Origin: a virus
Reading direction: 5' to 3' (one strand)
Length of the DNA: 36,716 bases
Virus record (IMG/VR): IMGVR_UViG_3300025131_000177
Span: 1 to 36,716 of that record
Positions 2,802 through 33,300 of the stretch are shown one piece after another. Numbering within the stretch: position 1 is the stretch's first letter; every line of letters begins with the position of its first letter. The notes beneath the pieces were generated by a model. The model saw nothing but the letters and a program-made list of their open reading frames with translations. It was not told the origin of the DNA and did not search any database. The translations under genes were made by a program, and so were the position numbers.

Positions 2802-3797
2802 CTATGATGCTCTTCTAATAAGTCTAACTGGCAGTTGCAACATCGCGCTGGTTGACTGCCCTTGAATATAAAGCGTCGTGTCAATATAATCATATGTATT
2901 GCCATCACCAAATAAATTTGCCCCAACAGTACCATAATTAGTGTATTTAACATTTGTTGATGCGGCTTTAGTGGCAGTTAAGCCTGAATCTATAGTCGCA
3001 TTAACCGCTGTCGCAGATCCGCCGGGGCCAGCCATAACTGATATAGTGCTACGATCTACTAATGCATTTGAATAAAAATACACAGTATTATCGATTCCTA
3101 CGGCTGTTGCTGCACTATAGTCTTCCAAAAATGTCGTAGAAGTTGCCGTCGCAGATGACATTGTAAAACTAACTTGATCTTCACCAGCTGAGCTATTGGT
3201 AAATGTAGAAGCAGCAGTTGGCGTCACAACAGAACTAATAAAACGATTATCAAAATAAATAGAATATTTGCTATCCAGTAAGTTTGTGCTTAGCATATAC
3301 GAACTTCTATTAGTCGAATCAGCAGTTATTTCACTAGTGTCTAATCCGGATTCAATAACAATTTTCCTACCAGATGTAGAGTTCGATAATGCCCAATATT
3401 TCGTATCTCCGAAAGCAGTAGTCAGTGCTGTGCCTGTTTCGTTATTTGCTGCAATATAGTAAACGCTCGATGTCTTAAACAATGGCGAATCGGCAACCAA
3501 CTCATTTGCCTCCAATGAAGGTAAATAAAGCAGATCTTTTCTCGTAAAAGAAAGCAGCCCATAATTAATATTCGCATTATCCGTTGTGAATGCCTCAAAA
3601 CACGGTGATTGAAGAATTTCAATATCGTAATACGCTGAACCAGAAGGATGATCCTTATTGTACAGTGTATAATCAATCTCATCATCGCCTAAAGCAAATT
3701 TAGTAATTTTAAAATTACCTTGAGCCATTCTTTTTCTACCTAAATCTGTCAACACGGCATCTAGTATAATATCGCCGCTGTTATCAAGAAACGCCAT
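2802..3797 (-). CDS. Tail-fibre-like structural protein with N-terminal docking-type motif, 331 aa
   Basis: The N-terminus contains LTDLGRKRMAQGNFKITKF followed by GDD (residues 16-39). This resembles the opening domain of many phage tail-fibre proteins (LT..G......G...I....GD), which usually fixes the fibre to the particle. The same pattern occurs at the same residue numbers in the 513-residue protein encoded about 8 kb upstream in the operon. The rest (about 100-331) is Ser/Thr/Ala-rich and beta-like, and ends with LQLPVRLIRR. The ATG at 3797 is preceded by AGAGGAAAATAA, a clear ribosome-binding site. The docking role of the N-terminus is an inference from similarity to fibre N-terminal domains (DUF3751 type). 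The C-terminal part is unrecognised. Confidence 0.65.
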   Translation of the reverse strand: MAFLDNSGDIILDAVLTDLGRKRMAQGNFKITKFALGDDEIDYTLYNKDHPSGSAYYDIEILQSPCFEAFTTDNANINYGLLSFTRKDLLYLPSLEANELVADSPLFKTSSVYYIAANNETGTALTTAFGDTKYWALSNSTSGRKIVIESGLDTSEITADSTNRSSYMLSTNLLDSKYSIYFDNRFISSVVTPTAASTFTNSSAGEDQVSFTMSSATATSTTFLEDYSAATAVGIDNTVYFYSNALVDRSTISVMAGPGGSATAVNATIDSGLTATKAASTNVKYTNYGTVGANLFGDGNTYDYIDTTLYIQGQSTSAMLQLPVRLIRRAS

Positions 3798-13254: not shown

Positions 13255-16200
13255 CTATCCTCCATTACTACCGCTAGCATATAACACTTCTGCTTCAAAT
13301 TTAACCATTTCTACAAAAGATAAATAATCATACGGCCAATTAAATGCTAGATTATAGTCATCACTTTCACTAGTTCGATTAAGACTTCCTTCTTTCATAT
13401 TAAAAATAGATGAATTACTGCTGCCGGCTTGGGTAACTATCTGATCATTATACTCTGTTTGGCCTTTTTGTTTAACTTTAAACACCATCCAGCGAAGATT
13501 TTCATTATTCATAAGGATATCCTCATCTAATAACTCTGTGTTAATCAATTCATGTGCAACCGATTCTACTTGAATTTCCATCTTTCTATAATCTCTTGGA
13601 GCAATATTTTGCCAAATATATGATAAATCATCTTTATCTAATTTATATTCAAACTCAAACATATACATCACAATAGGATCAACACTATCGTTATTTTTGA
13701 AATCAAACTGTGGTGGCAAAATATATTTATCCATCTTCTGTAATAACTTTCGAATAGATTTTCCTGCAGCATCTAATGAATCACCAGATAAACTACCAGC
13801 AGCATCTTCCAGCGCTGCAGCATATCTTTCTTCTGGTAATTCAATAAACTTCTTTCTTGTTGAGCGAAACTCGCTAGACAACGTTGTATTATCAGCTAAA
13901 CTAACGCTTTCTATGATATATGGAATCGCCACTACTGCTTCTTTTATTGTTTTAGTATTCGCCAACTCACCAAGTCGAACGGAAGAATTTGTTTTTTCAA
14001 ATCCTACTAAATCAGATAATGATTTCATTTTCTTATTAACAGTCGAACCTAAAATGCTTCCGTTATTATTATAAAATGAATTATTTTCTAAAACATCATA
14101 ATGATATTTCAACCAGTTCTTCGGAATATCGCCAATCTCCATAAATACACCCAAAGTAGATTTCTCTGGAATTACTCCAAACTGATGCCACATACCCCTA
14201 GGTGTTGCTGCTGCTCCAAAATTATCTGGCACTGTGAGATTATTATTTGATGCTTTAATACCATGAATACCAACATCATTAAAATTCAGCATTGGTGTCT
14301 CAAATTTTGGTTGAATTATCCAACGCTTACCTGAAATCTTATTGGTTGTTTTGATTAGGTTTCCAAATTTATCCTTTTCTTGTTCAAGTATCGTATCAAC
14401 ACCAAACAAATTTATACTAGCGCTTAGTTGCATAGCATTATCATTAACTGCTTTACCGCCATAAATTGATCTAAAATGTTGCCCACTTTCATAGAAAGAA
14501 CTAGTATTAGAGAAATTTGCTAGCAATGCTGTCTCTGTGCCTTCTCCCGATGCATCAGCATATTCGTGGCCTGAATCCACACGACGATATATAACCTGAG
14601 TTTCTGCAAGGATTTGTTCTAAATCATAGCTCTTGGTGTGGTCTGGCCAGAAAACAAAATCCACCCAAGCTTCACCGTAATAATATGGAGGAGTATATGC
14701 CCAGTTAAAACCATTAAAACAGTCGGCAGGTGCTCTATTGATGACATAGGAGCTAGTTGCGTATGAACCAGTAGGTCTGCCAGCGCAATCCGGGCCAAAG
14801 GATGTTGGGCGGCTATACATCGTAAAAGTTTCTTTATAGCCTGGATTTTGTCGAGGATCTTGTGGAATAGGATATTCTGAACTCGATACATAATTTGAGG
14901 CAGTGTAAAGAAGTGCTCCGAATTTGCCGTAACCTTGATTATTACCCCATGAACTAGATTCATATTGATACGTTCTAGCTCCCAAAGCAGAGCGTCTTAT
15001 CTTCAATCTCGCCCCATAAACACTACCAGATTCGAATCTCAAATCATTAGTTACAACGCCAGATTCTAATTTTGTGTATGTTCCATCTTTTAAGAAAAAA
15101 CTTCCAACCTCTCCAAAGAAGTTACTTGCCATCTTAGAATATAATGTATCCGCTGGAGTGCCACCCCAAGATGCCGTCGCATTAACTGACGCTGATGGAT
15201 GAGCTTCCATGTCTGGTAGCATAACTCCATTAATATGATTTTCCGGATTAATGATTGCTTCGAAGGGAATTCTCACATCGAAATAAGAACCAGTACCATT
15301 CCAGCCAGAATCTGTTTGATCGGAAGAAGTTGCATATGTTCGAACTCCCAGCGCCCAATTCGAACCAGAACCTACCGCTTCTGCTGATGCTGATCGGAGA
15401 GTTCCTGTTGAAGTGTTTAATGCATATGCGGTGCCGTTATATGTAACTGAACTACTATAATAGAATTTGCCTAATTTTGTTTCGTCAACAACCACAGGAT
15501 AATCTACAGCTAATCCAGATTTTATTGAATTATATAAAATACCAGGCGCAAATAATGGCTGCACAAGTGGGCGAAGAGCGCCACCTAGACGATTAATGAG
15601 TTGCTGGCCACTAGGAGCTGTTCTGCCATCTGGCGCAGTTTCCGCAATACCACCGGCGCCGGATATAAACACCTCACTACCTGTTGCATACAGCCCATCA
15701 ACATGTGAACTTGAAAATTGTGATACTAAATCAAGGGTTCGTTGGGCTGGGTAAAATCCCTTATATGGATTAAATCTGATTGCTGCGCTGCAGACCAATT
15801 TAATCTCTTTTGCATTCAACGAAGTGCTGTTCTTAATATTTAAGAAATTACTCATAAAATCTGAATTTGAATAATCTTTATAAAACCCACTATTGCTACT
15901 ATCAAGCGATGTACCTGGAATCGAAAATGTATCTGTTTTTCCTTTATTAAATAAGCCATATTTTTCATAATCGTCAATATGCTCGCTAATTCTAAACTCT
16001 GGCAATACTGAAAAATCTTTTGCTATCAACTTTAATTCATAACTATAATCTGAATATTCATTAAACCATGGCTTAGAAGGATACGATTGATACGTTACAG
16101 TGCTCCCGTTTTTTACAACTAAACCAGCTTGCGAACCAGCTTCCCACAACGCTTCGCCGCAATATATATCTACCATCGAAGCAATTTTAAACCCATCAGA

Positions 16201-19200
16201 AAAATATGATAATGAACCTGTTTCTGCGACAGCAACACCCATCTTAGCTACCACTGATTTTGGATTAGGCAGCATATGCTTTCTAGAATATAAAGCTGCC
16301 GGTGACAAACCTCTAATCATAGATCTATCATGCATTCGCATTGCCGCAGCAACGCCAGAGCCTGTACCATAATAAGGATTGGAAAAGAAATAATTATTTT
16401 GCAACTCACCTGAAGATCCTGAAAGTCTTAGGTCTGCCGATGATAAAATGGCGCCAACTGTTACCGCCGTATCAGTAGCCGGATTAACAGCAGACGGGCC
16501 TGCTGCGACAGTTCTAGTTAAGAAATCATCTTGTGGATCGAGCAGCCACGCACTTTGACTAATATTATAATTGTTTACACCAAACGAATTATTAAATGTG
16601 GCGCCTAATGTAACTCTATTAGCAGAATTATCTCGCCAATATTCATTATCATACCCAGCACGTTGAATTGATGATGAATAATATTCATTATACAATGAAG
16701 GATATAAAGCTTCTGAATATACAACCCAATTTACACGATACCCAGTTTGAGCAACTGCAGATGTCAGTTTATCAAACGAGGTTTGACTGTTAAGTTGATC
16801 AGAAGAAAAAACAAAATTATTAAAAGCAGTTTCATCAAAAAAGATATGACTGTTATTATGTGTCGCTTTAATAGTTACATCTTTAGTTGTCGATATAGAA
16901 AAATTAATAAGAGTTGGCCTTCCTTTTGTAGACAACGGAGTAAGTCTATATTTAGCTATCGAATCACTAGAGCCGGTTAAAACTGAAATCTGGTTGTTCA
17001 GCTTTTCTTTATAAAGAATTGGGTTATCACTTTGCCTAAATCCAGCTTTCTTCCAACTCCATCCATATAGATTTCCTCTCTTTGCCATAAGAAGATTAAA
17101 ATAATGAGTATCTAGATTATTTGCAGCTATAGCAACTCCCATAGTATCTACCACTAATGGGGTATTAATATAATTTGCAACATTAGCAGTTGTAGCATAT
17201 CCAATAATATTAGTTGAATCATCAACTGGATCTCTAATAAACAAATTTAATCTATTTGTAGACTGCACAAAAGAAGGATGAGCAGATGCTGTATAACTAC
17301 TACCGGTAATGAAATCAAAATACGATTCTATGCCAGCAGAAGTTGAATAATATCCTTCAAGTGTGCCAAACGTAGGTGCTAGTTGATAATATCTCATATC
17401 ATTTGTAGAAGAAGATATGTTCAACGATGCAGTAAACCAAGCATAGTTTTTGTCTTTTCTTGGAATTTGATGTTGTACAAAGAAATTGTCATAAACAGAA
17501 GCAGTTGTCGGCGTATCCGCAGAAAGTCGTATGTCTTTTGTAGTATTACGAGGAATCTTATGAAAACTTGCTGATTCATCAGTAGAGGCTCCCCAATTAG
17601 ATGTCACCCAAAAAGAATCCCTGCCAAATTTAGCAGAATGTCTAGCCAAGTGTGCGCGCAGTCCATAGTCCTTGCCATGAATATCATACACTCTAATGCC
17701 CGGTATGCCTGAGCCGGTTGCTTCCGAAATTGTCCCACTAGGGCCTTGAGATGGTTTAATTACTGTTAGGTTTCGATAACTTATACAATTATATGGAGAA
17801 AATTCAGAACCACGAAGATCTTGAAATCCCCTTGACATCACTTCAGGTCCGCCATGTACTGCAAATCGATTGACTATTACAGTTTTATTACCAGAACCAG
17901 TAAATTGCGTCGGGGCATATGTTAAATCAAAATCAAAATGGCCATCTTCTCCACGGTGTAAATTAATAAAGTTATTTATAATATTCGTAGAAGAGGATTT
18001 AACCGTTGTTATATGATTAACTACAGGCGTTGGAAGTGCGGGTTGTTTATCGATAAACCTTCTTGGATTTGTATATGCGCCTACAGTATATACAACTTCA
18101 TAATTCTTACTATAGTTACCCAAAACAGAAGACGTAGTGCTCTGTATATTGCGAATATTTACTGGGCGTTTTGCTAACTCATCACGATAATAAACTGCTT
18201 TTTGCGATGCAGTCATTGGATAAGGAGTTGCGCCTACAGCATTTGCTTCAGGCCAGGGATAATCAGCCCCAACCATACCTATCGCACCTGTTGTTGTATT
18301 ACCCGGCCCATGCCCAGTATCACACACACCTAACACTATCTTCCAGGCTTCAGGGCGAGTTAAATAATTATCTAAACCACTGGTAAAAAGAGTCTTAGTA
18401 GAGCTACTTTTGTTTAATGCAACATGTCGCGATTGATGACCACCAACGGCGAACTCTGTGAATGTGCCCTGCATTGGCTTTTCCATATCTGGGCCATATA
18501 CATCATGATGTAAGTTTGTAATTTCAACAGCGGCAGTAACTTTCTGTACAACTTGCATATTATAACCAGACACCACAGAAGAGCTAATAACATTGAAAGG
18601 AAAAGCGAAAGAAGACTTAAAATTACTATATCCCAAACCATCTTCCCAATCTCTACCATGTTGAACCTTCATATGTCTCTTAATGTGATCTTTATATTTA
18701 TTGCTAACTTCCCATTGCGATGTTTCTTCAAGTAATTCCATATCATCTCGAAATGAAATCAAGATATTCTTAGGAATAAAATTGCCATCATCGGTATTAA
18801 CTGGCCCTGCGGGATACAAAGCATTATAAACAAAGTGAATATCTTTTTTATGTTCAAAATTTGTTCCACCTCTGAGAAGTATTGCTTTATTTTTCCGACC
18901 AAAGGGATTTTGTAATTCAAGATTATACGTTTTAGCAAACTGTCTATCTGACATCCAACTACCGGTATAATTTGTTCCACCAGCATCACTAACAACTGGA
19001 GCGCTTTGTGTTAACGTGGGGGCAGACCATATAGTATCGCGAATTGTATTTCTTTGAGTATCAACCGTGGCATCGCCGGATGTAAGCTCGGCCGAGGATC
19101 TATCTGCACGTTGAAGCCAAAAACGTGGTTTTTCGTTTGTTTTTCGCGGAGATGCTGGAGGTGGAGACGAATCTTGCACCGCTGCCCAGGATGCCTCTGA

Positions 19201-22200
19201 CCAACCTGTCAACAATCCATATGGATCGTCTGATTTAAACTCCATTGTTGGAAATTTTGTTTGATACTTATTTCTCTCCAACACATGACTTTCAATAACA
19301 TTATAAATATCACCACTATAATCTGCTGATGCTGGCAATAATTGTCCGATAATTTCTGCGATTGATGAATCGAACCATTTAAAATATTCAATATACTTCT
19401 CCACATGCTTAACTTCTGTTACTCTGCGAAAGAAAATATTCCTCAACTTCTCCAATGCTTTATATCTATCACGATATCTATTAACGGGTTCGCCAATGAT
19501 ATTATTAAAATCAACAACACCAGCAAAGAATTGTAACATCTCTTCTGAAATTATACCATATATGCTCTTTTCTAAAACAAATCTATAATCTGGTACTGTT
19601 TGAACATTTCCAAATACCTTATCATCATCAGATAAAATTTGGACCATATCTGACGATACAACTATTTCCGGATCTGTAAATTTATATGCACTTATTGCCT
19701 GTGAGTTTACAACATCACTCGACGAGGTACCAAAACCAGAACCAGATCCGGCAAGTTGATATCCAGCTAAATTTCCTAACCAGCCGTAATTATTACGAAG
19801 CACAGCAGAGCCAGAGCTTATATCTGTCACTTCGTTTAATGCGCCGTTTGCATTAGAGCCTGTGACGTTATCAAAATTCCAATTAAGCGCTAATGTATTC
19901 CAATTTAAAATATCCAATCCTTGATTGTGTGCATGATTTTTATCACCCCAAGGAGAAAGATGGCGATTCGATCCAGAAACTCCGCGATTATTTACATCAA
20001 AAGCATGTTGTTCTAAATCACTATCCTCAAGATATTTTGCCCAATATTTAACATCATTCAATAAAACATCAGACTTGTATAATAAAGCGCCAGTAATATT
20101 TGTTTTTTGGGCGCCGGCATATAGTCTTTTATTTGACCTTAATATCTTCTGGCCAGCCGTTTGCGTAATAGAGGCTGATGTTGAAAACGTGTTTTGCACA
20201 TCTCCCATTACTGTATTGATGCCTTTAAATATAACATCATAAGTGTATGTGGTAGAACCAGTAACAATTTCTGTTAAAGGATAATTGCTTGGCTTTATTC
20301 TAACAGAGAAATTCCATTCGGTGTTATCATAAACATCATAAAATATACTACTTGTTAACGGCGTATATTGACCCGCAAGAGGATCGCCCGAAGATGTAAG
20401 CATAAAATAAGCATTTTTAGAATACTCTGTATCTCTAACAGCAAAAGCTTGAAAATTGGCGTAGTTATCGGAACCTGTTACAGTTGTTGTATCTATTCCA
20501 AGGCGGGCGCCCGACAACGACGAAGACGCAGGGACCGTCGCCATCCCAAACAAAGAAGAAGTTGTAAAACTTCTATCAAAAGTATCGATTCTTTTTTCAA
20601 AACTCGGAAATAACACACCTGCTTCAACAGTAAAGCCGTATCTGTCTTCGTATGTATTAAGCGATGAACTAACATTGCTTCCAGAAATATAACCGCGTGT
20701 TTCGCCGTCTGAAACAGCAGTTACCCCCTCTTTTGAAGCATTATAAATTGCCTTAACTTCTGTCGCAGATAAAATATCATTCCAAACGGCTACATCTGAT
20801 AGCTGGCCATTGAAGCCGTAGCTGCCGCCTTTATAATTTCCAATACATGCATCAGTTACTTTAATTGCATTCCAATCTGAACCGGCAGAATCTTGCGCTG
20901 TCACCGTTTGTTCTACGCCATTAACATATATTTTTGGAACATTAGCACCAGCAGTCGCATCATAAGTAATAACCACATGGGCCCATGTATTTAGAGATAT
21001 AGCGGCGGCGGAAGTATAAAAGTCTTTCCATGTATCATCCCAAAGAGTATTAAACCAAATAAGTTCTGTCGCTGTTGTCCACGCACGAACGATACCATCG
21101 GCTGCGGCTTCATTGCCCCTGCCGAATTCAAAAAGCCTACCAAGCGAACCACCGCCATCACCAACTTTATAAACCCACATAGAAAAAGACATTTTTGAAG
21201 TGCCGCCGTCTCCTATGATATCGTTCCAAACCGCAGCAGTTCCAATATTAACCCCCATATCGGCGCCGTCAAAACCACAACTAGCGGTTTGAACATAAAT
21301 GGAAGGATAATTCGATTCAGAAAAAGAAAGTCGCGAAAGAGTTGACCAATCGTCACCATCTACGTTACTAACCGCAAGGGCTTCATCCAAGATATTGTCG
21401 GCAGCAGATCGATCTTTGTCCATCCTCCACCAACCCTTTAAAGAGCTAGACGCAGCATACATATGGGCGCCGCCGAACCAATCATTTTTAGTTAAATCAT
21501 AAGTAGTCGCATATGGGCGGGCTTGATAAACAGTTCCAGATAAGTTATTCTTATGATTAAAATTCAAAGCTGTCTTATTAACGAGAATTTGAGTAAGATT
21601 GTTTTTTAACTCATAAGTTCGTCTATTAGAATAAGCATTTAATTTGATCAGTCTTTCATCGATATTAAAACATCTAAATACATTGCGAATTGCTTTTTCT
21701 GTGCCTTTTGCTTTAAAGATGTGAGCAAGGTTGTTGTAAAGATTCAAATAAATTAAGTTCTTTGTTTCTGTTAGATCGCCTTCAAATAATGTAGTTTGAT
21801 CTCGATTCATAAAACGCTCAAGTACATCTGAATCAATAAATGTTTCTGGGGTGTATAAACCCAATGACTGTGGCATATGCTGCGCGAACGGCAACGGCAC
21901 ATACGAAGAGCTAGTATATGTTTGATTTCTAAATCTGGCAACAGACGATATTAAAAGATAAAGTTTATCAAAATAAACACCAATAATGTGTGACATTATT
22001 TTTAAATTATTAATGTCTGCGCCGGCATCATTATTTTCTTGCTCTTCCACCACCCAAGCCGGTAACATGCTCAATATTGAAGTATTATTATTTGAATCAT
22101 GAAAGGAGCCGCTACTTAATAGATTTGTTTTTACCGTCACCACGTCTGGATGATCTGTGCGAATAATTGGATCTTCGTATTCTACCGTCGCTGCGCTAGC

Positions 22201-23601
22201 TGATATTATCGCGGAACCGGTATTTCTAGAATTTGAACCATAACCAGTCCAAGTTCCGTTACTAATCCTTCCGCTATAGTCTAATACTACATTATCAGTG
22301 GTGCTGGTTCCCGTTATACCTTCGTTAAATTTATAATAGAGTCCAAGCGTTGTATTGGAAATATCTGTATTTGTGCCGGCGCCTACTTGGGTAAAATAAT
22401 GTTTGGCAATCTCATGAGAGCTTCTTCGGATTTTCCAAAAACGGAATTCATCGAGAGAGCCGTCTAGTTTACCGCCGCCGGCTAGCTCAGATGGGCCGTC
22501 ATGACTAGCTGACGCTTCCGAAAGCGTACCAGACGGAGCAGTCAAGAGGCCGGCAATTCTGCCCATCATATTTTTGGAATTTAGCTCATTTAGATTTGCC
22601 GTAACAACATTGGTATCATCCAACTGTCCGTTGATGTGTAGTTTAGAGATAAAGTTGGATCCACTATTATAGAATGAAAAAGCGTAATGTCTCCATTCTC
22701 CTAAAGAACTTGAACCGGCGCCAATTGATTGTTGAAAAATTCCTGTTGCCTTCGTATTTGGAGCAGCAACACCATTATCATTACCCGATTGCGCTGTGAC
22801 TATCCATGGTTGGGCGCGAGTGCTAGCATTTCTCAAATCAAGCGCAATCGTAATACGACCAAAATCGGCGCTAGAGCTTAATTCATTGTTCCACATATCA
22901 AAAACTACTTGTCTTTGGGTGTCTGTCACTGTCGCATCCGATCCGCTTTTATACCAAAATTCAACAGTTATGCCATTATCAAAGTCTGATTTTAAATTTG
23001 ATTCACGTGAGCCTGAACCATAATTGCTTATGAGACTATTGTTTGTGTAAATGTCGGTATCATATACATTGGCAAAACTTCTGTTCGACGAATTAGGATT
23101 TTGAAATAACTTCGCCGTAGTTGCAGCTGTGACTGTATTTGGGCCACCATAAACGGTAATATATTCGGTGGTAGTCGATACACCATAGCCGCCGCTAGCT
23201 GCCAATACATTTTTTCCAGCGGCAGTGGAACCCCTATTTCCCCAACCATCAGCACTTAAGATGACATAACCTGTGCTTTTAGGATAAAGATTGTCAAAAA
23301 CATATTTGTCAATATCTAATGATTCATTATAAAATTCATTAGTCTCGGCGTCAGAGCCATCATATGGATAGAAATCAGCAACCCTCTCCATTGCAGATTT
23401 ATAATATAAATATGCAGAACCATATCTAGCAAAGTTGGCAGGATCCGTATAATCAACTTGAGGAATATATGTTTCCTGCTTCTCGCTGACAGCCTTAACA
23501 TTTCTTTCCGACTCTACCTCTTGAAAAGCTTCTTTATTGGTAGTATCGGAAAGGTAATTGTTAGAGTTGTCTGTGGAATCGAAAAGCTTTTTAATACTCA
23601 T
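13255..23601 (-). CDS. Giant baseplate-associated protein with two LamG-type domains and a possible gpI/gp7-like region, 3448 aa
   Basis: This 10.3-kb frame fills over a quarter of the window. A conserved-looking start (about 45-100, including DYTDPANFARYGSAYLYYKSAMERVADF across several strands) leads into a first LamG/concanavalin-like domain (about 200-400; VEFWYKSG, EWRHYAFSF, LDEFRFWKIRRS). Next is a helical part (about 490-660) with LYNNLAHIFKAKGTEKAIRNV, which recalls P2 gpI/T4 gp7 wedge proteins. A second LamG domain follows (about 715-955; FSMWVYKVG, NTWAHVVITYD, LSDVAVWNDILSA). The remaining 2400 residues are beta-like and Ser/Gly-rich, with another helical section near 1350-1460. 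Its start overlaps the DNRLRE-like gene by 11 bp and has only a weak ribosome-binding site. LamG folds commonly bind glycans, so host-surface binding is likely. The gpI relation is tentative. Confidence 0.72.
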   Translation of the reverse strand: MSIKKLFDSTDNSNNYLSDTTNKEAFQEVESERNVKAVSEKQETYIPQVDYTDPANFARYGSAYLYYKSAMERVADFYPYDGSDAETNEFYNESLDIDKYVFDNLYPKSTGYVILSADGWGNRGSTAAGKNVLAASGGYGVSTTTEYITVYGGPNTVTAATTAKLFQNPNSSNRSFANVYDTDIYTNNSLISNYGSGSRESNLKSDFDNGITVEFWYKSGSDATVTDTQRQVVFDMWNNELSSSADFGRITIALDLRNASTRAQPWIVTAQSGNDNGVAAPNTKATGIFQQSIGAGSSSLGEWRHYAFSFYNSGSNFISKLHINGQLDDTNVVTANLNELNSKNMMGRIAGLLTAPSGTLSEASASHDGPSELAGGGKLDGSLDEFRFWKIRRSSHEIAKHYFTQVGAGTNTDISNTTLGLYYKFNEGITGTSTTDNVVLDYSGRISNGTWTGYGSNSRNTGSAIISASAATVEYEDPIIRTDHPDVVTVKTNLLSSGSFHDSNNNTSILSMLPAWVVEEQENNDAGADINNLKIMSHIIGVYFDKLYLLISSVARFRNQTYTSSSYVPLPFAQHMPQSLGLYTPETFIDSDVLERFMNRDQTTLFEGDLTETKNLIYLNLYNNLAHIFKAKGTEKAIRNVFRCFNIDERLIKLNAYSNRRTYELKNNLTQILVNKTALNFNHKNNLSGTVYQARPYATTYDLTKNDWFGGAHMYAASSSLKGWWRMDKDRSAADNILDEALAVSNVDGDDWSTLSRLSFSESNYPSIYVQTASCGFDGADMGVNIGTAAVWNDIIGDGGTSKMSFSMWVYKVGDGGGSLGRLFEFGRGNEAAADGIVRAWTTATELIWFNTLWDDTWKDFYTSAAAISLNTWAHVVITYDATAGANVPKIYVNGVEQTVTAQDSAGSDWNAIKVTDACIGNYKGGSYGFNGQLSDVAVWNDILSATEVKAIYNASKEGVTAVSDGETRGYISGSNVSSSLNTYEDRYGFTVEAGVLFPSFEKRIDTFDRSFTTSSLFGMATVPASSSLSGARLGIDTTTVTGSDNYANFQAFAVRDTEYSKNAYFMLTSSGDPLAGQYTPLTSSIFYDVYDNTEWNFSVRIKPSNYPLTEIVTGSTTYTYDVIFKGINTVMGDVQNTFSTSASITQTAGQKILRSNKRLYAGAQKTNITGALLYKSDVLLNDVKYWAKYLEDSDLEQHAFDVNNRGVSGSNRHLSPWGDKNHAHNQGLDILNWNTLALNWNFDNVTGSNANGALNEVTDISSGSAVLRNNYGWLGNLAGYQLAGSGSGFGTSSSDVVNSQAISAYKFTDPEIVVSSDMVQILSDDDKVFGNVQTVPDYRFVLEKSIYGIISEEMLQFFAGVVDFNNIIGEPVNRYRDRYKALEKLRNIFFRRVTEVKHVEKYIEYFKWFDSSIAEIIGQLLPASADYSGDIYNVIESHVLERNKYQTKFPTMEFKSDDPYGLLTGWSEASWAAVQDSSPPPASPRKTNEKPRFWLQRADRSSAELTSGDATVDTQRNTIRDTIWSAPTLTQSAPVVSDAGGTNYTGSWMSDRQFAKTYNLELQNPFGRKNKAILLRGGTNFEHKKDIHFVYNALYPAGPVNTDDGNFIPKNILISFRDDMELLEETSQWEVSNKYKDHIKRHMKVQHGRDWEDGLGYSNFKSSFAFPFNVISSSVVSGYNMQVVQKVTAAVEITNLHHDVYGPDMEKPMQGTFTEFAVGGHQSRHVALNKSSSTKTLFTSGLDNYLTRPEAWKIVLGVCDTGHGPGNTTTGAIGMVGADYPWPEANAVGATPYPMTASQKAVYYRDELAKRPVNIRNIQSTTSSVLGNYSKNYEVVYTVGAYTNPRRFIDKQPALPTPVVNHITTVKSSSTNIINNFINLHRGEDGHFDFDLTYAPTQFTGSGNKTVIVNRFAVHGGPEVMSRGFQDLRGSEFSPYNCISYRNLTVIKPSQGPSGTISEATGSGIPGIRVYDIHGKDYGLRAHLARHSAKFGRDSFWVTSNWGASTDESASFHKIPRNTTKDIRLSADTPTTASVYDNFFVQHQIPRKDKNYAWFTASLNISSSTNDMRYYQLAPTFGTLEGYYSTSAGIESYFDFITGSSYTASAHPSFVQSTNRLNLFIRDPVDDSTNIIGYATTANVANYINTPLVVDTMGVAIAANNLDTHYFNLLMAKRGNLYGWSWKKAGFRQSDNPILYKEKLNNQISVLTGSSDSIAKYRLTPLSTKGRPTLINFSISTTKDVTIKATHNNSHIFFDETAFNNFVFSSDQLNSQTSFDKLTSAVAQTGYRVNWVVYSEALYPSLYNEYYSSSIQRAGYDNEYWRDNSANRVTLGATFNNSFGVNNYNISQSAWLLDPQDDFLTRTVAAGPSAVNPATDTAVTVGAILSSADLRLSGSSGELQNNYFFSNPYYGTGSGVAAAMRMHDRSMIRGLSPAALYSRKHMLPNPKSVVAKMGVAVAETGSLSYFSDGFKIASMVDIYCGEALWEAGSQAGLVVKNGSTVTYQSYPSKPWFNEYSDYSYELKLIAKDFSVLPEFRISEHIDDYEKYGLFNKGKTDTFSIPGTSLDSSNSGFYKDYSNSDFMSNFLNIKNSTSLNAKEIKLVCSAAIRFNPYKGFYPAQRTLDLVSQFSSSHVDGLYATGSEVFISGAGGIAETAPDGRTAPSGQQLINRLGGALRPLVQPLFAPGILYNSIKSGLAVDYPVVVDETKLGKFYYSSSVTYNGTAYALNTSTGTLRSASAEAVGSGSNWALGVRTYATSSDQTDSGWNGTGSYFDVRIPFEAIINPENHINGVMLPDMEAHPSASVNATASWGGTPADTLYSKMASNFFGEVGSFFLKDGTYTKLESGVVTNDLRFESGSVYGARLKIRRSALGARTYQYESSSWGNNQGYGKFGALLYTASNYVSSSEYPIPQDPRQNPGYKETFTMYSRPTSFGPDCAGRPTGSYATSSYVINRAPADCFNGFNWAYTPPYYYGEAWVDFVFWPDHTKSYDLEQILAETQVIYRRVDSGHEYADASGEGTETALLANFSNTSSFYESGQHFRSIYGGKAVNDNAMQLSASINLFGVDTILEQEKDKFGNLIKTTNKISGKRWIIQPKFETPMLNFNDVGIHGIKASNNNLTVPDNFGAAATPRGMWHQFGVIPEKSTLGVFMEIGDIPKNWLKYHYDVLENNSFYNNNGSILGSTVNKKMKSLSDLVGFEKTNSSVRLGELANTKTIKEAVVAIPYIIESVSLADNTTLSSEFRSTRKKFIELPEERYAAALEDAAGSLSGDSLDAAGKSIRKLLQKMDKYILPPQFDFKNNDSVDPIVMYMFEFEYKLDKDDLSYIWQNIAPRDYRKMEIQVESVAHELINTELLDEDILMNNENLRWMVFKVKQKGQTEYNDQIVTQAGSSNSSIFNMKEGSLNRTSESDDYNLAFNWPYDYLSFVEMVKFEAEVLYASGSNGG

Positions 23602-25165
23602 AATCTTCTACTCGAAACTTAAATGTTTGATTTTGCTCCATCCAGGATCGTAAAGCTGCATCGTAAAACGAGAACTTAAATGCATATTCATATCCAGGCT
23701 CTAATAAGCCCATATCAAAATCAAAATAGTTCCCAGAAACGTCATGTGATAGATATGTGTGATAATCGCTTCCAGTGCCATATGGAACTGCCTCATAAGC
23801 ATCCAATGTTCTTAATACCCGATAAGAAGCACTATAGATTGTTACCACAGGTGGAGATGTTTTTGCTTTAGTATAAATGGTTGGATTCCAATTTTTATTC
23901 CTTACATATAAATTAAATCTTGCCGTTTCATCTGATCGATATTTATCATGTAAATTAGTAATATTCAAATAATAAATTGGCTTTGCAATATTATCGCCAC
24001 CAGATAATGTCTTGGGTTTAAACGAAGCAGTTGCATATTCCGTACTTCCGCTGTGCCATATATCATATAGCGTCCCTACGGGTGTTGAGGCGGCAGTAAT
24101 AGCGACAGAAGCTGAATAAATACCGGTAGAGACATATCCACCAGTTATATTAAGCTTACTATCATATAAAATCAACTTTGAACCTGATGGTGCTGTGTCA
24201 TCTGTTGAGCCAGAATATAAACTAACTAAAACGCTTCCCGTAAGAGTCTCGCTGCCAGTGCCAGGAAGATTGGATAATTGTCCACGAATATAGTTATAAA
24301 GATAAATTGTATTCAAATTATCAGCAGCTTGTGCCATGGAGCTACTATAGTAAAAGTCGCCTCGTTGATCTACAACGCGATTATCCCAACGGGCTTCAAC
24401 AACAGGTCGTTTGAAGAAATATTCTGAACCTCTGGCGAAAAACCGTTTAGTATAATAAGAAACAGTGGCGCCTCCGGTAAGAGGCAAGACAGAATATGAA
24501 GCAGTGTTGGCGCCAACTGAAGCGCTGGCTTCATAACTAGACGAAAAATGAACGCCTATTCCATTATTTGTGATTGTGTCTGCAATCCAATGTTCTACTA
24601 AAGGCGTTATGTCAACTCTAATGTCCTCTAATCCAGTAGTTAACGAAACATTAAATTGAGGATCTGCTGAGCCAGTTCGATAGGAGCCGCCAACGCTGTC
24701 ATATGTCGCGTAACTACTTCCTGTCCAGGGCATAGTGTTTGATGCGCTCATCCAGTTGGCGCCGATGCTTCCTCTAGTAATGTCGCTATAATTTTCGAGA
24801 TCCAGACCAACACCCTCTTGCCAAGTTTGTGCCACAGCACGAATCGATAATGTATAATCAACTGGAACGGTTTTTGAATGCCGTGCGTTAAACATTCGAA
24901 GATAAAAACTCACACTACCACTAGCAGGAATTACTGAATTTGTTCTATCAGTAGTAATGTCTGTAATAGGAAACTTTAATAAAATTCTAGAAAGCTCTTG
25001 CGATCCTTCTGTTGTTGATGTATTTTCAGTTTGTCTTCCATAAACTGAAAACGTCTCCAAAACATCGGCATGCCCTGCATTAGCACCAGTTCCTCGTGTA
25101 GCTAAATTAGACTGATATGCATTTGTAATCGTTGTATCGGCCGAAGCAGTATAGCGTTTTAGCAT
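23591..25165 (-). CDS. DNRLRE-like beta-sandwich structural protein, 524 aa
   Basis: The N-terminal 200 residues follow the DNRLRE pattern: an opening SADTTITNAYQSNLATRG, then SRILLKFPITDI, SVSFYLRMFNA and TWQEGVG, then VDITPLVEHWI near 225. This module is a jelly-roll seen in surface and carbohydrate-associated proteins and in phage tails. A second half of beta-like Ser/Tyr-rich sequence ends in NQTFKFRVEDYEY, similar to the ends of other proteins in this operon. The start ATG shares one base with the gp6-like stop (TAATG) and has AAAGGA upstream, so it is translationally coupled to the wedge gene. Position between gp6-like and the LamG giant suggests a baseplate component, perhaps linking wedge to adhesin. 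Confidence 0.65.
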   Translation of the reverse strand: MLKRYTASADTTITNAYQSNLATRGTGANAGHADVLETFSVYGRQTENTSTTEGSQELSRILLKFPITDITTDRTNSVIPASGSVSFYLRMFNARHSKTVPVDYTLSIRAVAQTWQEGVGLDLENYSDITRGSIGANWMSASNTMPWTGSSYATYDSVGGSYRTGSADPQFNVSLTTGLEDIRVDITPLVEHWIADTITNNGIGVHFSSSYEASASVGANTASYSVLPLTGGATVSYYTKRFFARGSEYFFKRPVVEARWDNRVVDQRGDFYYSSSMAQAADNLNTIYLYNYIRGQLSNLPGTGSETLTGSVLVSLYSGSTDDTAPSGSKLILYDSKLNITGGYVSTGIYSASVAITAASTPVGTLYDIWHSGSTEYATASFKPKTLSGGDNIAKPIYYLNITNLHDKYRSDETARFNLYVRNKNWNPTIYTKAKTSPPVVTIYSASYRVLRTLDAYEAVPYGTGSDYHTYLSHDVSGNYFDFDMGLLEPGYEYAFKFSFYDAALRSWMEQNQTFKFRVEDYEY

Positions 25166-26961
25166 TATCTAATCTTTCCTTTGAAATCCGACTTAGGAAA
25201 TTTAATCTCCAAAATAGCATTCTTTGGAACAACTAAATAGCTTCCATCCGGTGATAAATTTGAATTAATATTTATTTCTGCTCCGGAGTAATCACCGCCA
25301 GTTTTATTATTCAACTTTACTTTCACCACATCCAAAACACCTTTTACATTCTTCAATGTTGCATAAATATCACTAATATAAATCGGTTCTCCAATAAAAA
25401 ATGCTGTCGAATATTTGTTTTTCAAAGCAGTCATACAAGCGTCTAATAAAATAAATCTATCTGCATTCGTTGCCGGTTTGACAATAAAATCAATTCCTAT
25501 ATTAATAATATATGGATCTAAAATATCAATTGTATCACTTATCATTCTAAAATTATTTAGCCAAATTTTTAAGTTGTTTTTTATTGTTGAATTTGTTAAT
25601 GTTAATTTATTATTTTGATCTTCTGAAATAACATACAAATTCAAATTTCGTTTAAGTGAATCTGGATCTCTCTGTATTGAGCATCTTTTAATCGAACCAA
25701 ATTTCGGTGCCATTCGATATGCAAGATTTTCGTAATCTGCTTGTGTAACTGCTCTATTTTGAGTAGGAAATGTATCAAAAATTCTTCTTTTGATTTCATT
25801 AGTGGTAACACTCGTAACATCCCCAACTATCGGCTCTTCATTGTTAACTTCTAATGACGAAATAACCGACTGCAATGTGCTTTCAGTTAATGTCTCTCTA
25901 TTCGCAAAATCCATCATAACGCTACTAACTGTCTTAATTCCACCAACGCCAATATTTGAATTAGTTGGATTTGTGACTCTATACATAATTGTTAATTTAG
26001 TATTACTAGGAACAATTCCATAATTTTCATTTCTAGAAAGACGAGTTGGATCAAAAGTAGTATCAGTAACGTAATCTTTTCCAAAAACATTCATTGCTAC
26101 AGCTTGTGGGTTAGCAACAACATTTGATTCGCCAGATTTACCACTTCCAAACTGAAGATATGAATTAGTTCTATCTCTATCGACAACAAATTTGCGAGAA
26201 ACCAAAAATGGCTTAATAATAGAAGGAACATTATCATTCTTAAAATTAGTATTCGATATCTCTTTAAATACCATATCTTGCGCAAGATATTCTACTTCAA
26301 AATATTCATTACCTTCTGAATCGGTAACGCTAATAATTTCCGAAACATTTGCTGACGCTATTTTTATCTTTTTAAATCTCTCATAAGCTCCAATATCATA
26401 TTGTTCCTGTTTAAAATACCCTGAAACAACTCTTCCGTAAGCTTTAATAGCATAATAAGTGGGAGCACCGGTGCTAGCATCCACTCTTGCAGTAACAACT
26501 GGATTTCTTGGTGCTGCAAAATCTATATTTTCTGTTAAAACAAAATTTATTCCTGTTGAAGAAGTAAATCGAGTACCTTTTTTCAAGATAGGAATATAAT
26601 CTGTATCCGGTCCAATACCAGTGGAGGATGCCGGCACAAGAATAAAAAGAGCAACTACTCCATATGTCGATGGTCTGCCGGTATGTTTGTACCCCATTAT
26701 TTTACCATGACGTAATACATTATTATACTGGTAAGCAGTATCTAAAAAAGCTTCATTGACGTTATAATCTAAATAAAATGAAAGCTGATCACCAACATAC
26801 GCCACAGCATCTAACATCATAGAGCCAAACGATGCTTCGCTAAAATCCTGAAAAGTATCTGGATAAAACCGTTCTGCAATTCCCATTAAATCATTTCGAA
26901 TGCTTTGATATTCTCTATGAGTATAATCAATCGGTACAATCTTTTTTTGTTCATCTGACAT
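25165..26961 (-). CDS. Baseplate wedge protein, gp6/baseplate J-like
   Basis: At 598 residues it is close in size to T4 gp6 (660). The N-terminal region (about 10-100) carries the family pattern: FSEASFGSMMLDAVAYVGDQ, then FYLDYNVNEAFLDTA, VLRHGKIMGY and GRPSTYG. The C-terminal third includes NRAVTQADYENLAYRMAPKF and GSIKRCSI, then a domain typical of J-like proteins. In contractile tails this protein dimerises to form the ring of the baseplate that triggers sheath contraction. It follows the gp25-like gene by 15 bp, the standard W-J order. The ATG at 26961 has GAGGG upstream. No sign of truncation or frameshift is seen. Confidence 0.88.
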   Translation of the reverse strand: MSDEQKKIVPIDYTHREYQSIRNDLMGIAERFYPDTFQDFSEASFGSMMLDAVAYVGDQLSFYLDYNVNEAFLDTAYQYNNVLRHGKIMGYKHTGRPSTYGVVALFILVPASSTGIGPDTDYIPILKKGTRFTSSTGINFVLTENIDFAAPRNPVVTARVDASTGAPTYYAIKAYGRVVSGYFKQEQYDIGAYERFKKIKIASANVSEIISVTDSEGNEYFEVEYLAQDMVFKEISNTNFKNDNVPSIIKPFLVSRKFVVDRDRTNSYLQFGSGKSGESNVVANPQAVAMNVFGKDYVTDTTFDPTRLSRNENYGIVPSNTKLTIMYRVTNPTNSNIGVGGIKTVSSVMMDFANRETLTESTLQSVISSLEVNNEEPIVGDVTSVTTNEIKRRIFDTFPTQNRAVTQADYENLAYRMAPKFGSIKRCSIQRDPDSLKRNLNLYVISEDQNNKLTLTNSTIKNNLKIWLNNFRMISDTIDILDPYIINIGIDFIVKPATNADRFILLDACMTALKNKYSTAFFIGEPIYISDIYATLKNVKGVLDVVKVKLNNKTGGDYSGAEININSNLSPDGSYLVVPKNAILEIKFPKSDFKGKIR

Positions 26962-26976
26962 AAAAAACCCTCATTT

Positions 26977-27345
26977 TTAAATAGTAATTTCTAAGAAATC
27001 TCTATCACCAATATTCGGAATAGAATAAATTATAGAAAACGCTAAACGATTATTATCTGCATCAGCAATACCGAAAGCAATATTCATTATTGATATAACT
27101 GGTAAATAGATATTAACTTGTTCTCTTATTTTACTATCTATTTGTGATTCGATTCCAGAACCATAATTTTCAAATAAAAACTGTTTCAAACCTACTCCGA
27201 AATCTGGATCCATCACACGTTCACCAGGATCAGTCAATAAAAGCATCTTTAAATTTTGTCTAATCAACTTCTTAATACTCTTTATCATTACAAACCCGTC
27301 GCCATCATCCAATTCTAACGGAAGTGCTACACTATAAGAAGCCAT
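26977..27345 (-). CDS. Baseplate wedge protein, GPW/gp25 family
   Basis: This 122-residue protein has the usual length and pattern of the GPW/gp25 family: an N-terminal strand, a helix (IKSIKKLIRQNLKMLLLT), the signature PGERVMDPDFGVGL at residues 40-53, then helices and a final strand. In T4 and related contractile systems gp25 joins the wedge to the first sheath ring. The Glu-Arg pair (42-43) is the family's most conserved feature. GAGG lies upstream of the ATG at 27345. Its position directly before the gp6-like gene is the classical wedge order and makes the assignment robust. Confidence 0.92.
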   Translation of the reverse strand: MASYSVALPLELDDGDGFVMIKSIKKLIRQNLKMLLLTDPGERVMDPDFGVGLKQFLFENYGSGIESQIDSKIREQVNIYLPVISIMNIAFGIADADNNRLAFSIIYSIPNIGDRDFLEITI

Positions 27346-27371: not shown

Positions 27372-30300
27372 TCAATCTTCTTTTTCACATAACTGTCCAT
27401 TAGAATCAAAAGGATTAGATGCTTGCATCCGTTTTTGCCAACGAGGAAGCAAGTGCTGGCCGGGTGGAAGCTTGAATGACTCACGTAGGCTATTTAAAAT
27501 AATCTTACCTGGCTTATCGGCGGCAGCATCGCCAAGATCAAAATCTCTAGAATTATAATGCGTTTTAAATAACTTTTTCAAGCGACTCTTTGTTCTTCTT
27601 AATAATACTTGATCCCACTCATCGTAAGTGGTAATAAACGGCGCTGGCCATTTGGTGCGATCATCAATATTAGCCCAACCTTCTGCGCTAACCGTTGGTT
27701 CACTAAATGTACTGACGCCATCGTCGCCTTCGGCGGCTGCATATTCAATATACATCCCTGGTTTTGTGCCGGCACCTATTGTAGTGCCAGAGGCGGCGCC
27801 AAACGCATTGCCGGCGGCAACAGTAACCTCTCCAATGGATGGCAAAAATGCTTCAGTATTATATATTGCCAACATTGATAGAATCTTCTTCATTGGAAGG
27901 GCATATTGTGCTACTAGTTTATATGTATCATCATTTTTAAGCATATTAACCAAACATAACAACAATTTACTATCCCCATCAAATGGAGGTATTTTGCCAA
28001 CCAACGTATCTAGCGCATCAACTTCTACCGTTGTCACAGGATATGCAATGCCGCTCATTACAACTGAAAACTCTAAACCATATCTTACTCCTAATTTTCC
28101 AGTTAATCCAACAACTCTTCCGCCAGCATCAACAACATGTTCCAAAGTGCCAGGATAAACTTCAGATATCAATAAACTATTATCATTTGCTTTAATAGTC
28201 TCTAACGCAGCAGCTGGTGAAGTTTTTGTACCATTGATGCTTATATATTTTTCGATTCGATATGGTTTAGAGGTTCCGGTACTTTCACCATAGATAGCCA
28301 CATCGCCAATCGGAACTGTTACCTGATCTGCCAAGGGACGCAAAACATCATGATCTTCTTCTACATGAAATTCTCCTGCCATATACACAGTATCACCATC
28401 GTCATCAGTTGCAACATGATAATAGCCAGTATACATTTCGCCTGTTTCTGTATTCGAAAATTCAGTACCATTAGTGTATAATTCTTCCCCTTCAGTTGGA
28501 AGATCTACAACCTCTTCTTTGACATCCTCGGCAATATCCAATGTGCTATCGTTAGTAAATGCTGCAGACATAAGATAATAATCTAAATCAAATACATCTG
28601 GTTTCATATCCACAATCTTTAAGTTATCAACGAACTTTTCACCCATATAATTCAATTGTTCAATAACCAATTCCTTAAGAACTAACTTAGCATATTCTTC
28701 AGTTACTTGAATAAACTCCAGATTCTTATTAGAACGATAATTTTTCAATGTTTTAAATTTACTTACTTCATCTAAATCTTTCGCTTCTTTTAAATCCTCT
28801 CGATAATAATAATCAAAATCTTTTACTTTTTTGCTTAAATATTCTAACGCATCATATGTGCTTTGCGGTGGAGTGAATCCCTCTGAATCCATTCTTCTTA
28901 CATATGTCTGAACAGACTGCTCCAAAAAAGCATACCAAAATTCACTATCCTTAAAGGGATTAAAGAATTCCCAGCCGGCTTTTTGGGCGCTCTTAAAATG
29001 TCTTTCCATATCTTCAACAATATATTGTGCAAAAAGCGAACTATAAGTCTCTGTAAATTTAGGATAAAACTTTGTAAACGTTGCTATAGCTTTAATAAAA
29101 TGTACACTTACGAATGCTCTAATGCCGGCAGTTATAAGCCCCTCAATTGCCGCCACCGATGGGCGTTCTAAAATCCTCTCATATGGCAACTCTTTAATAC
29201 AATCTGGATCGGATTTTAACCTTTCGTCTTCTGGTAATTGAGGATAAACCTCATCTATTTTGCCTTGAATATCTCCAAAATCAATCAAATCTGTTCTCTG
29301 TGGCTTACAAGGACTTATTTCAGGAAACATTACATCCACGAAACCTACCCAAGCTGAACTAGTTATTGGAGTAATATATACTGGTGGATTCATATACGTT
29401 CCGCCAAATTGTGCAGGATCTAAATAGAAAACCCTATTAGGTGGGCCATCGTTATTCTCTTCATTATATTGCATCCGACTAATGCCCAGTATCATATCAT
29501 CGTTTAAAATCTTTCTTTCCTCACCATCCTCATCTAGAACTGTTGCTTCATAATACGAAGCGCCGGCGCCGGTGGATGTCTGATCATTATCAACAACATA
29601 CTCAACATCCTCTTTTGTCAAGCTATCAAAAGAAGCACCATAAGTGAACGCTGGAGTATTGCCGGAAATTTCTAAAGCAAATGTTTGCGCAATAGTAGTC
29701 ATAGCAGTATCGTGAAAAGTTTTAACACTATCATTAGCCACACTAGCTCCGTTTTTATTCAATATCTCTTTCAAAAGTATGACCTGTGGTATATAATTGG
29801 AGGCTGCTGTTTCAAATGTTGACATAAATTCTGGATAATCTGATAAATCAATGCCATCAAGTGTGTCATCAACTGATAAAAATTCATATGCTCTTTCATG
29901 AAACGGCTCTGCATCGTCAAGACTCGACACCGCTTCCTTCATCGCTGCAAGTTTCGGCACAACAGATAATAATGCAAACTTTACCCAATCTATTTTATCA
30001 GCTACATTATATTCATTAACTATCTTAACTCTAGCATTATCACCGGGACGATTAAGAACAGTACCGCCGGATTCATATAAATCAGACATATACATTCCCA
30101 TCGTAAATCCAAAAGAATATGTAGCTGCATTGTCGCGGTCGAGTTTTCCAGCGCTCAAATCTTGAAATGTCAAAGTCATATCTGGTTCTGCTTTTCTTGC
30201 TTTTTCAATAAAATATACACTCTCTTCGGCATAAGAAGCTGATATATCATAGTTGTAGCCAAAATCCGGTAATGCTAATAAATCTATATTTTTGCCAAAT

Positions 30301-33300
30301 CGATCAATGCCCAATTGTTCAAAACTTGCACTAGTGTTGTAATCGTCTTGAGCTACATTTGTCGTTGAAAAAGACAAGGCAGCTTCGTCCCCGATACTAT
30401 AATTGGATGAACCCAACGCCATTTCGCCAAAATGATCTTGCAAAAGCTCTGCTACTTTATATGGATATGCGCCTCTTTGTTTTGCAATCGGTGCAAAGTC
30501 GTCAAGTTCAGCATCGGCTTCGGCGGTCGGATCAACATAAAAATTTACCCATTTTTCGAAAAGATTAGTTTTTCGCTGGTGGGCTGTGAATGGCATTCCC
30601 ATTGTATCAGAAAGAATCATATTTATAAGCCCCCAATTCTTCATACCAGGACCATTGCCCAGCATATCATAAGAAAAAGCGACCTTCAATTGTTCCATAT
30701 CACCACCAAGCACAGCAGACACAACTGCTTTTTGCTCTTCAGATTCAAATGGAATTACCCCATTATCACAACCAGGATCAGACACCAATGGAGGCATATT
30801 ATCATCAATATAATTCGGTATACCTTTCATAAGAATTGCTCCCAAATCATCTAAATCATCAAGCATTGAAGGTTGCAGCCGCATTGCTTCACATTGTTCC
30901 TTAGTTGCTCTGCCTTCTAATAAATTACATCTATGCTCATTAAACTGATCTATTTGCTCTGGTGTTGCGCAAAGTGATGGATTTGCCGGCAACACTTCAT
31001 CCTCTGGTATGTTATTTAAGGCGTCTTTCATTTGTTTTGTAAAATCTGCCGGCATCAAATTACCGCAATTTTTAAAGAAATTACCTATTTTTTCTTTATT
31101 TGGAAAAGCTGCTTGCATATCTGGATATTCATATTCGATAATTGTACTAAAAATATTTAAAAATTCATTAGATGGCTCACCTGAAAAAGCTTGCAGCATT
31201 TCTGTTTGGGTTGATGCCGATGATACATCTTCTGCCATTGCTAATACTTGTTCCTGATCAGCCAACGCAGAACCGCCGCTACCTAAAGAATTAAACATGT
31301 CCATTATTGTATCATTAACTTGCTCTTCATCGGCTTCCGGGCCGCAGATAGATTCACGAACAACATCTGCAAAGGTTGATCTTCCGGTTGCTATGGAAGG
31401 TAAGGCGGCAGCAATATCACCAACAGTCTCTAGTGCTTTACAGATAGCATTTCCTATTAATTCACATATTTTCACTAATAATTTCATTATAATTTTAATA
31501 ATTAATTTCTGCAGTGCTATTCTTAAAGCCATCCAAATAAACTTCATAATATCTTTAAATTCTGGAATCCAACCAAATGGATTCTCTAATCTTGGAAATG
31601 TAATATCGGTGATATTATTGCACCAAGGAATTTCGAGATCTTTAATAAAATCCATAAAACTCGGATTAAATATTGGCGGGCGTGGGCAATCTAATAATGC
31701 AATAATTTTTGCTACAACAGGGGCGCCTGGGAACTTATTAAATTCATCGAGTAATTCTAAAAGATTATCTTGATATAATTCTAGAAGCGCTAGCATATAT
31801 GCTTCCATTACAATATTTGGACTAAGTTGGTTTTGATTAGCCTCAGAGCCAACATTAAACTGTTCTGTTAAAGTGGCGTTGCCGGTTTCTGAAGTTTGTT
31901 GCAACTCCGAAGCCGTCATGCCGCTTTCGGTTCCTTCCTTTTTATTTTCTCTTTCTTGTTCTACTAACTCTTCTGACTCCCAAGGATTCGACCACTCTAA
32001 TTTGCCTTCGATAGTATCAGAAATCTGTTGACCAGAACTTCCTTCTTTAAACACATCACCGCTTTCAATCTTTTTCTGAACTAATGCTCCTAACTCTGCT
32101 TGTTTATCTGCCGGTAATCCAACAAACAACTCACCGAATTGTTCTATTCCCATAGCTTTAAAGGCACTTTTTAGCATACTTGCTAGCGCCTCTTCGAGAG
32201 ACAGGCCACCCATTAAACACCCAATTGCGTCCATCAATAAATCAAACAACCCACAAAGCTTAATTTTATCAAATCCGTGTTTCCAGATATCATTTACTGC
32301 ATTTCCACCACCACCGCTGGCACCAAATAATATTCTTGCACAAAGCTCTGTAAATACCTGATCATTTTGATCAAGTTCTTTGAACGCTTGTTCTTGTGCC
32401 ATGGCGTATAGTTCAACAAGATTTCCCTTCACAGAACCAGTATCAATGCCGGCGGCGCGTGGGCCAGCAATTAATCCTGCGCCAACTTTATCATCAAGAA
32501 CTTCTCCTAAAGATGTTTGACAAATATTGTCATGAAATTTTAAAGAAATAGCATCTCCGATACTAAACACATCACTAAGAATATCCTGCCCTAGTTGCTT
32601 ACCTTCGTCTCGTAACGCTTCTCCGATACAACTAATAACGGTATTACTAGGATCTATATCAGTAATCGCCGGGTTTGTGGTGTCATATATGGGAGGATAT
32701 GTATACTCTTTAATAAACTCCAGCCATGGCTTTGGAGTGCGAGCCTGAAAATCATTATCCATATCATGCAAACGAGCAAAATACGCCATAGCTGTTGGAT
32801 CTTTCCAAGCAGACTGAGCCAGGAGAGGTTTTAGTTTTTCTCGAAAAGTTATTGGTTTCTCACCGCAGCCTTCTGTCCAGATCTTTAAACGTTTTAATTT
32901 AAACTTTTTATTAAATTTAAATTCTGCTTTTACCACTCTATCATTGCGAGATCCTTTAAGACCACCAACCCCAGGAAGATTATAATTTTTCTGAACCATA
33001 AAACCATCTAATTGTGTTAAAGCTTTACCTAATAGTGATGTTGGAAAAAACCCAGCATCACCATATAAACTTAAATCGAAAAGACTATTATTACTAGTAA
33101 AATATAAATTTCCTTCTTCCATGGCACGATATACATTAAGATATCGGTTATAATGATTAAGCCCTTTTCTTATTCGAATCAAAAGCGGCTTAAGTTCATT
33201 TGTACTATATGTGACAGTCGTATCGCCGGATTCATCATCTTCATCGCTCTCATCATCTTCAGCTATTGCGTCTTCTAAAGCATTTAAATCATCATAAGGT

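Follow-up and report, generated by a model that had tools for sequence, protein, structure and literature searches.

The locus and its relatives

The window (the whole stretch of DNA that was analysed) comprises the 36,716 bases of one virus record, and this 36.7-kb fragment encodes a giant protein next to genes for baseplate wedge proteins:

13255..23601, minus strand: giant ORF of 3448 codons (3448 aa), a probable gpI/gp7-like wedge-type protein with LamG/ConA modules (open reading frame and translation)
23591..25165, minus strand: 524-aa beta-rich protein, between the gp6-like gene and the giant
25165..26961, minus strand: gp6/J-like baseplate wedge protein (phrog_6, 4.3e-18; phrog_219, 3.9e-17)
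26977..27345, minus strand: gp25/gpW-like baseplate wedge protein, or sheath initiator (Pfam GPW_gp25, 7.1e-14, over the cut-off)

ORF calling and translation show the giant ORF to be intact and to start with ATG on the minus strand; stops are abundant on the plus strand across 13255-23601. The ATG shares 11 nt with the 3' end of the upstream 524-aa ORF. The giant is not a chance frame, since 59 complete relatives of 2921-3976 aa can be aligned over its whole length. The first-pass annotation was therefore right to report a real and intact protein of 3448 residues, but its coding strand has to be corrected to minus.

Along the direction of transcription, the genes are an endolysin-like gene, two uncharacterised genes, the gp25-like gene, the gp6-like gene, the gene for the 524-aa beta-rich protein and the giant, followed downstream by more large uncharacterised genes that are possibly fibre-like. 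This arrangement is kept in two cultured relatives, Microcystis phage Mel-JY01 and Flavobacterium phage immuto, both of which have gp25, gp6, two genes and then the giant's counterpart, and in a 191-kb relative gp25 precedes the giant by a few kb. Proteins of gpI/gp7 type had been described earlier as normally following gp6/J, and the order gp25 - gp6 - beta protein - giant fits that description with one extra gene intervening.

Several neighbouring genes deserve mention in their own right. The Mel-JY01 counterpart of the 524-aa beta-rich protein has a CBM96 match (5.5e-5, under the cut-off), and given this weak match the 524-aa protein may be another binding part. The endolysin-like gene (34917-36350, minus strand; phrog_894, E = 0.003) marks the upstream end of the baseplate cluster and may encode a hub-associated peptidase. 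Directly upstream of gp25, a 2129-aa protein (27372-33761, minus strand) has no PHROGs match at 0.01. The protein encoded at 2802-3797 (minus strand) begins MAFLDNSGDIILDAVLTDLGRKRMAQGNFKITKFALGDDE, which we take to recall the N-termini of cyanophage tail fibres.

Searches of viral contigs with part of the giant (residues 474-700, segment A below) returned 18 and then 460 relatives, with more from two further scans; 103 distinct relatives were retained, including the 59 complete ORFs. All close relatives are metagenome contigs. By tblastn, segment A of the window had zero matches among 50,697 known phage records, and segment A of another member, L155, likewise found nothing among known phages. 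The divergent member L120 reached Mel-JY01 (1336 aa) and immuto (1265 aa), and Mel-JY01 as query then led to an uncultured 484-kb phage. A gp23-type major capsid protein (PF07068, 7e-60 to 8e-63) is present in three large relatives. The family appears to be a large, uncultured and mostly marine group of T4-like phages. A genome collection held only three relatives, in contigs of Maricaulis and WOR-3 MAGs. One of these (L214, CP070664.1; 41% in segment A) lies within a 2.8-Mb MAG chromosome of candidate division WOR-3, where the adjoining frames look broken, as in a prophage, a frameshifted long-read assembly or a chimera.

The gpI-like region

The proposed wedge region of the giant comprises two conserved helical segments, with a further domain between them:

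21502..22182, minus strand: segment A, helical gpI-like wedge segment, residues 474-700 (Tail_P2_I, hhalign to gpI, predicted helices)
21586..21732, minus strand: helix - KGT turn - helix - strand motif (gpI signature), residues 624-672 (invariant K and K-G-T, aligned to the KGT of P2 gpI)
19687..20709, minus strand: ConA3, predicted LamG/pentraxin fold, residues 965-1305 (AlphaFold model with Foldseek/VIA; conserved, between A and B)
19234..19674, minus strand: segment B, helical, proposed second half of the wedge region, residues 1310-1456 (conservation, collinearity with A)

Segment A ranks among the most conserved parts of the giant in the alignment of relatives, and runs in the order helix, helix, helix, KGT turn, helix, strand. 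The stretch KAKGTEKAIRNVFRCF (residues 630-645) lies inside it, and the KGT with its flanking lysines is invariant across 90 relatives. The resemblance to gpI that had been proposed for this helical segment is borne out by Pfam, by searches of whole contigs and by profile alignment. Tail_P2_I (PF09684) is its commonest Pfam match, found in 25 of the 90 relatives at E <= 1 (best 6.5e-4), and a Pfam search of the window's own giant ORF gave no Tail_P2_I match. When the entire contigs of twelve relatives (96-191 kb) were searched for Tail_P2_I, six had a single match each, which always coincided with the KGT motif of the giant ORF (open frames of 2949-3513 aa). In one of the twelve the match passes the Pfam cut-off (20.9 versus 20.6 bits), and the five others match below it in the same place. 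This search found no separate gpI gene in any of the twelve contigs, in agreement with the earlier expectation that no other gpI-like gene lies elsewhere.

Alignment by hhalign to eleven gpI proteins gave P values of 2.3e-4 to 2.3e-3 with a constant register. The scores of 27.7-32.3 exceeded the shuffle maxima of 20.8-26.3, and none of 150 shuffles scored as high for each of three profiles that differ in make-up. Taken one sequence at a time the match is weak, and it covers mainly the ~45 residues that surround the KGT. The case for gpI, drawn from sequence, thus combines these ~45 residues with gene order and uniqueness, and makes it likely that the giant is gpI-like. The earlier claim had named gp7 as well as gpI. 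The gpI half is upheld by Tail_P2_I and hhalign, but direct profile similarity to T4 gp7 was not detected: the giant had no match to a gp7 profile that is shallow (Neff 2.4) and lacks a positive control at this distance, and a search of thirteen relatives' contigs, also without a positive control, found no T4-gp7-like gene. The giant can be called gp7-like by position.

Structure prediction was less informative for the helical parts. AlphaFold of segment A alone, with 90 sequences, gave a pLDDT of 64 and a pTM of 0.34, with low-confidence helices at positions 12-39 and 59-85 of the segment; for A, ConA3 and B together the overall pLDDT was 45, and the helical parts were uncertain. No gpI or gp7 chains appeared among the Foldseek/VIA matches of the low-confidence segment A models, comparison of the low-confidence models with viral models gave no significant match, and profiles of segments A and B found nothing relevant among PDB sequences. 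In solved baseplates the gpI-type helices are packed on the gp6 dimer, and for this reason the absent fold match was not counted against gpI membership.

Other matches of segment A were set aside. Those to Pfam S-layer, DUF2850 and further families were scattered and judged to be due to chance. The family phrog_3465 ('head closure Hc2', 978 aa) was matched by 15 of the 90 segment A relatives (best 2.9e-6) and by the window only at E = 0.027; this family may be mislabelled and may instead represent a further wedge protein.

Segment B is the most conserved piece of the giant, with 75% mean column identity. The gap between A and B is 320-400 residues in most giants and holds ConA3. The two segments occur in the same order in Mel-JY01, where a ConA-sized gap of ~355 residues lies between them, and in immuto only ~80 residues separate them, so the ConA domain must be absent there. 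The predicted ConA3 model has a LamG/ConA jelly-roll fold; its top Foldseek/VIA match has Z 14.6 over 215 residues (rmsd 3.7), and its neighbours include the PAPP-A LamG domain, pentraxins, neurexin LNS and phage tailspike domains (CBA120 TSP2, Pan3). Profiles of ConA3 and of the more N-terminal LamG1 matched the ~1300-aa relatives only marginally. Most simply, A and B would make up a single wedge region into which a LamG-fold domain has been inserted, and the two segments would then pack together. The wedge-type domain of the first-pass annotation thus survives as a gpI-like segment embedded among LamG domains, but consists of two conserved pieces flanking the third of these domains.

Permanent and exchangeable LamG domains

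The remainder of the giant is made up of two further LamG-type domains and a long C-terminal part:

22192..23274, minus strand: LamG1, residues ~110-470 (second Laminin_G_3 stretch, alignment; conserved in all relatives)
20722..21477, minus strand: LamG2, an optional exchangeable LamG/ConA module, residues ~709-960 (best Laminin_G_3 stretch, 801-950)
13258..19233, minus strand: family-specific C-terminal part, residues 1457-3448 (conservation and insertion map)

Laminin_G_3 matches the window's giant in two stretches (E = 3.9e-19; 69.7 bits versus a cut-off of 27.6) and is matched by 10 of 13 relatives. The helical segment had been described as lying between two LamG-type domains. The LamG assignment was correct, but there are three LamG/ConA-like domains, at residues ~110-470, 709-960 and 965-1305. 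Conservation of LamG1 and ConA3 extends to all relatives, a few of which have further inserts within LamG1. LamG2 has the best Pfam score of the window's LamG domains and yet is optional: it sits as an insert between A and ConA3, and nearly all relatives lack it.

The exchange of LamG2 is clearest in the nearest relative, a sister contig with 99.2-99.5% DNA identity over the rest of 16 kb. Its LamG2 has 40-54% protein identity to that of the window, with sharp borders at codons 709 and 937; 108 of the 152 differing codons in this stretch are non-synonymous, versus 16 of 46 among the compared codons around it. Inserts at the LamG2 site occur in nine members. On a tree of segments A and B the 709-960 site must have changed at least 8 times, and well-supported branches require every one of these changes. 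Two further close pairs (L070/L079 and L129/L149) also differ there.

In other members, modules related to LamG2 (35-53% identity) occur elsewhere in the same protein. In the window's numbering they lie within LamG1, close to residues 260 and 331, and also around 2000 and 2335. The module profile matches LamG1 itself weakly, at 287-399 in the window and ~210-398 in relatives. Insertions in the C-terminal part fall near residues 1789, 2000-2029 and 2335, and weaker members of the LamG2 profile family lie near 1789 and 2029. In all, one module family occupies about six discrete sites, each time as a pure insertion relative to the core alignment, and an insertion map of 60 full-length proteins picks out the same few sites. 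The backbone of ~3050 core columns is thus stable, while modules come and go. The most used site is at residues ~1995-2029, with 26 events of >= 170 aa among the 60 proteins; only part of the modules at this site match the LamG2 profile strongly. The comparisons among relatives demonstrate gain, loss and exchange of LamG modules, by recombination as read from the alignments.

Interpretation and comparison with known systems

The best reading of the giant is as a baseplate wedge protein of gpI/gp7 type that doubles as a modular receptor-binding scaffold. Its wedge identity is well supported, its place in the baseplate is suggested by homology and gene order, and glycan binding by its LamG-type domains is inferred. 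Segment A, probably with B, would pack on the gp6/J-like dimer and so anchor the giant in the inner baseplate, as the gpI similarity and the gene order suggest. The LamG/ConA-fold domains would sit around and inside this anchor, with LamG1 and ConA3 as permanent parts, while additional modules of the LamG2 kind would occupy loops at a small number of permissive positions. The LamG-type domains would face outward, and the exchangeable ones would most likely bind host surface glycans, in which case the baseplate itself would carry receptor-binding units. Swapping a module would then alter binding and leave the core untouched. We assign a probability of roughly 0.68 to this reading, namely a wedge protein in the gpI/gp7 position of a T4-like contractile-tail phage, with permanent LamG1 and ConA3 and exchangeable glycan-binding modules.

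A different possibility is that the giant is a separate tail fibre or adhesin docked on the baseplate through a helical docking domain, with a chance KGT and with the true gpI or gp7 having escaped recognition. The giant is indeed far larger than gpI (176 aa) or T4 gp7 (1032 aa), the gpI match is short, and the extra 524-aa gene stands between gp6 and the giant. Such a fibre would not be expected to hold the Tail_P2_I match in all six contigs that have any match (6/6), nor to share the conserved segments A and B with wedge-position relatives of 1265-1404 aa, and the relatives' contigs yielded no other gpI or gp7 candidate; we consider a docked fibre improbable.

Somewhat more credible, if still unlikely, is that the giant is a wedge protein whose LamG/ConA domains are structural rather than glycan-binding, their exchange tracking that of the fibres they hold. 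LamG folds also serve as protein-protein modules, the conservation of LamG1 and ConA3 throughout the family is what one would expect of structural parts, and the large genes downstream are possibly fibre-like. Against this, near-identical phages can differ in whether they have an optional module and in which version they have, as would be expected if the modules bind receptors, and the tailspike domains of CBA120 TSP2 and Pan3 are among the fold neighbours of ConA3. The LamG2 difference between the window and the sister contig could also be an assembly chimera, as both contigs are metagenomic and short reads could join different templates at module borders. This explanation is very hard to reconcile with two versions that are both in frame with exact domain borders, and with same-site inserts in nine members, at least 8 tree changes and contigs from different samples.

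The baseplate wedge with exchangeable modules therefore remains the preferred reading. In contractile phages the receptor-binding parts are normally pictured as fibres or spikes that are fixed to the baseplate. The bolder proposal, that a gpI-type core split by a LamG fold is a docking scaffold for mobile LamG modules at about six sites, with receptor-binding exchange taking place inside the baseplate and not in fibres, seems to us evenly balanced. If true, a numerous group of uncultured, mostly marine T4-like phages would have made their binding parts integral to the wedge, the trigger of sheath contraction, and would vary them by module exchange at set sites, linking host recognition directly to that trigger. 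Natural insertion sites in a baseplate protein would also have been identified, and the LamG2 allele would be a sequence marker for adsorption changes in natural phage populations.

The closest parallels in well-studied phages are P2 gpI and its homologue in phage XM1, gp17. Like these proteins, the giant has a helical pair followed by the KGT helix-turn-helix motif and is encoded after homologues of gp25/W and gp6/J. It differs in being ~20 times longer than P2 gpI (176 aa) and in the lengthening of segment A between helix 2 and the KGT. XM1 gp17 holds the tail spikes via a flexible loop in its first domain and its C-terminus (PMC10457771). In gp17 the spikes are attached, whereas the giant has LamG/ConA domains in and around the gpI-like segment, so by analogy its binding parts would be built in.

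T4 gp7, another wedge protein with several domains, likewise follows gp6 in gene order and carries a KGI/KGT motif (at ~residue 738 in T4), but has 1032 aa and no similarity to the giant found at the profile level; we know of no LamG module in it. A link between the two is suggested by gp015 of Synechococcus phage S-SCSM1 (Kyanoviridae, 4120 aa), a wedge-annotated protein with the same gp25 - gp6 - giant order and an N-terminal KTKGT motif that matches T4-type gp7 there. In gp015 the motif is at ~residue 205, Laminin_G is not matched and segment B is undetectable. A YHYH domain (1.3e-26) is present at residues 1287-1384 of this protein (L213:2038-14400). The proteins of Mel-JY01 (WWT39511, 1336 aa) and immuto (QQO92079, 1265 aa) share collinear segments A and B and the same gene neighbourhood with the giant, and A and B are also the conserved part in the wedge-position relatives of 1265-1404 aa. 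Both proteins are 2-3 times shorter than the giant, whose C-terminal 2000 aa were not detected in them.

Phage receptor-binding proteins are well known to exchange domains. Like the giant, tail fibres and tailspikes of modular build do so with sharp borders between near-identical phages, and ConA/LamG-like folds occur in tailspikes. In the giant, however, the exchanged domain lies inside a wedge-type protein beside a gpI-like segment, and a single protein carries one module family at several sites. Cyanophage deposits (S-SCSM1) already include giant proteins encoded directly behind gp6, and a search on LamG together with phage baseplates and receptor binding, short of the whole literature, found nothing comparable. 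As far as the searches reach, what is new is a gpI-type wedge region that is split by a LamG fold and hosts a mobile LamG family at several sites.
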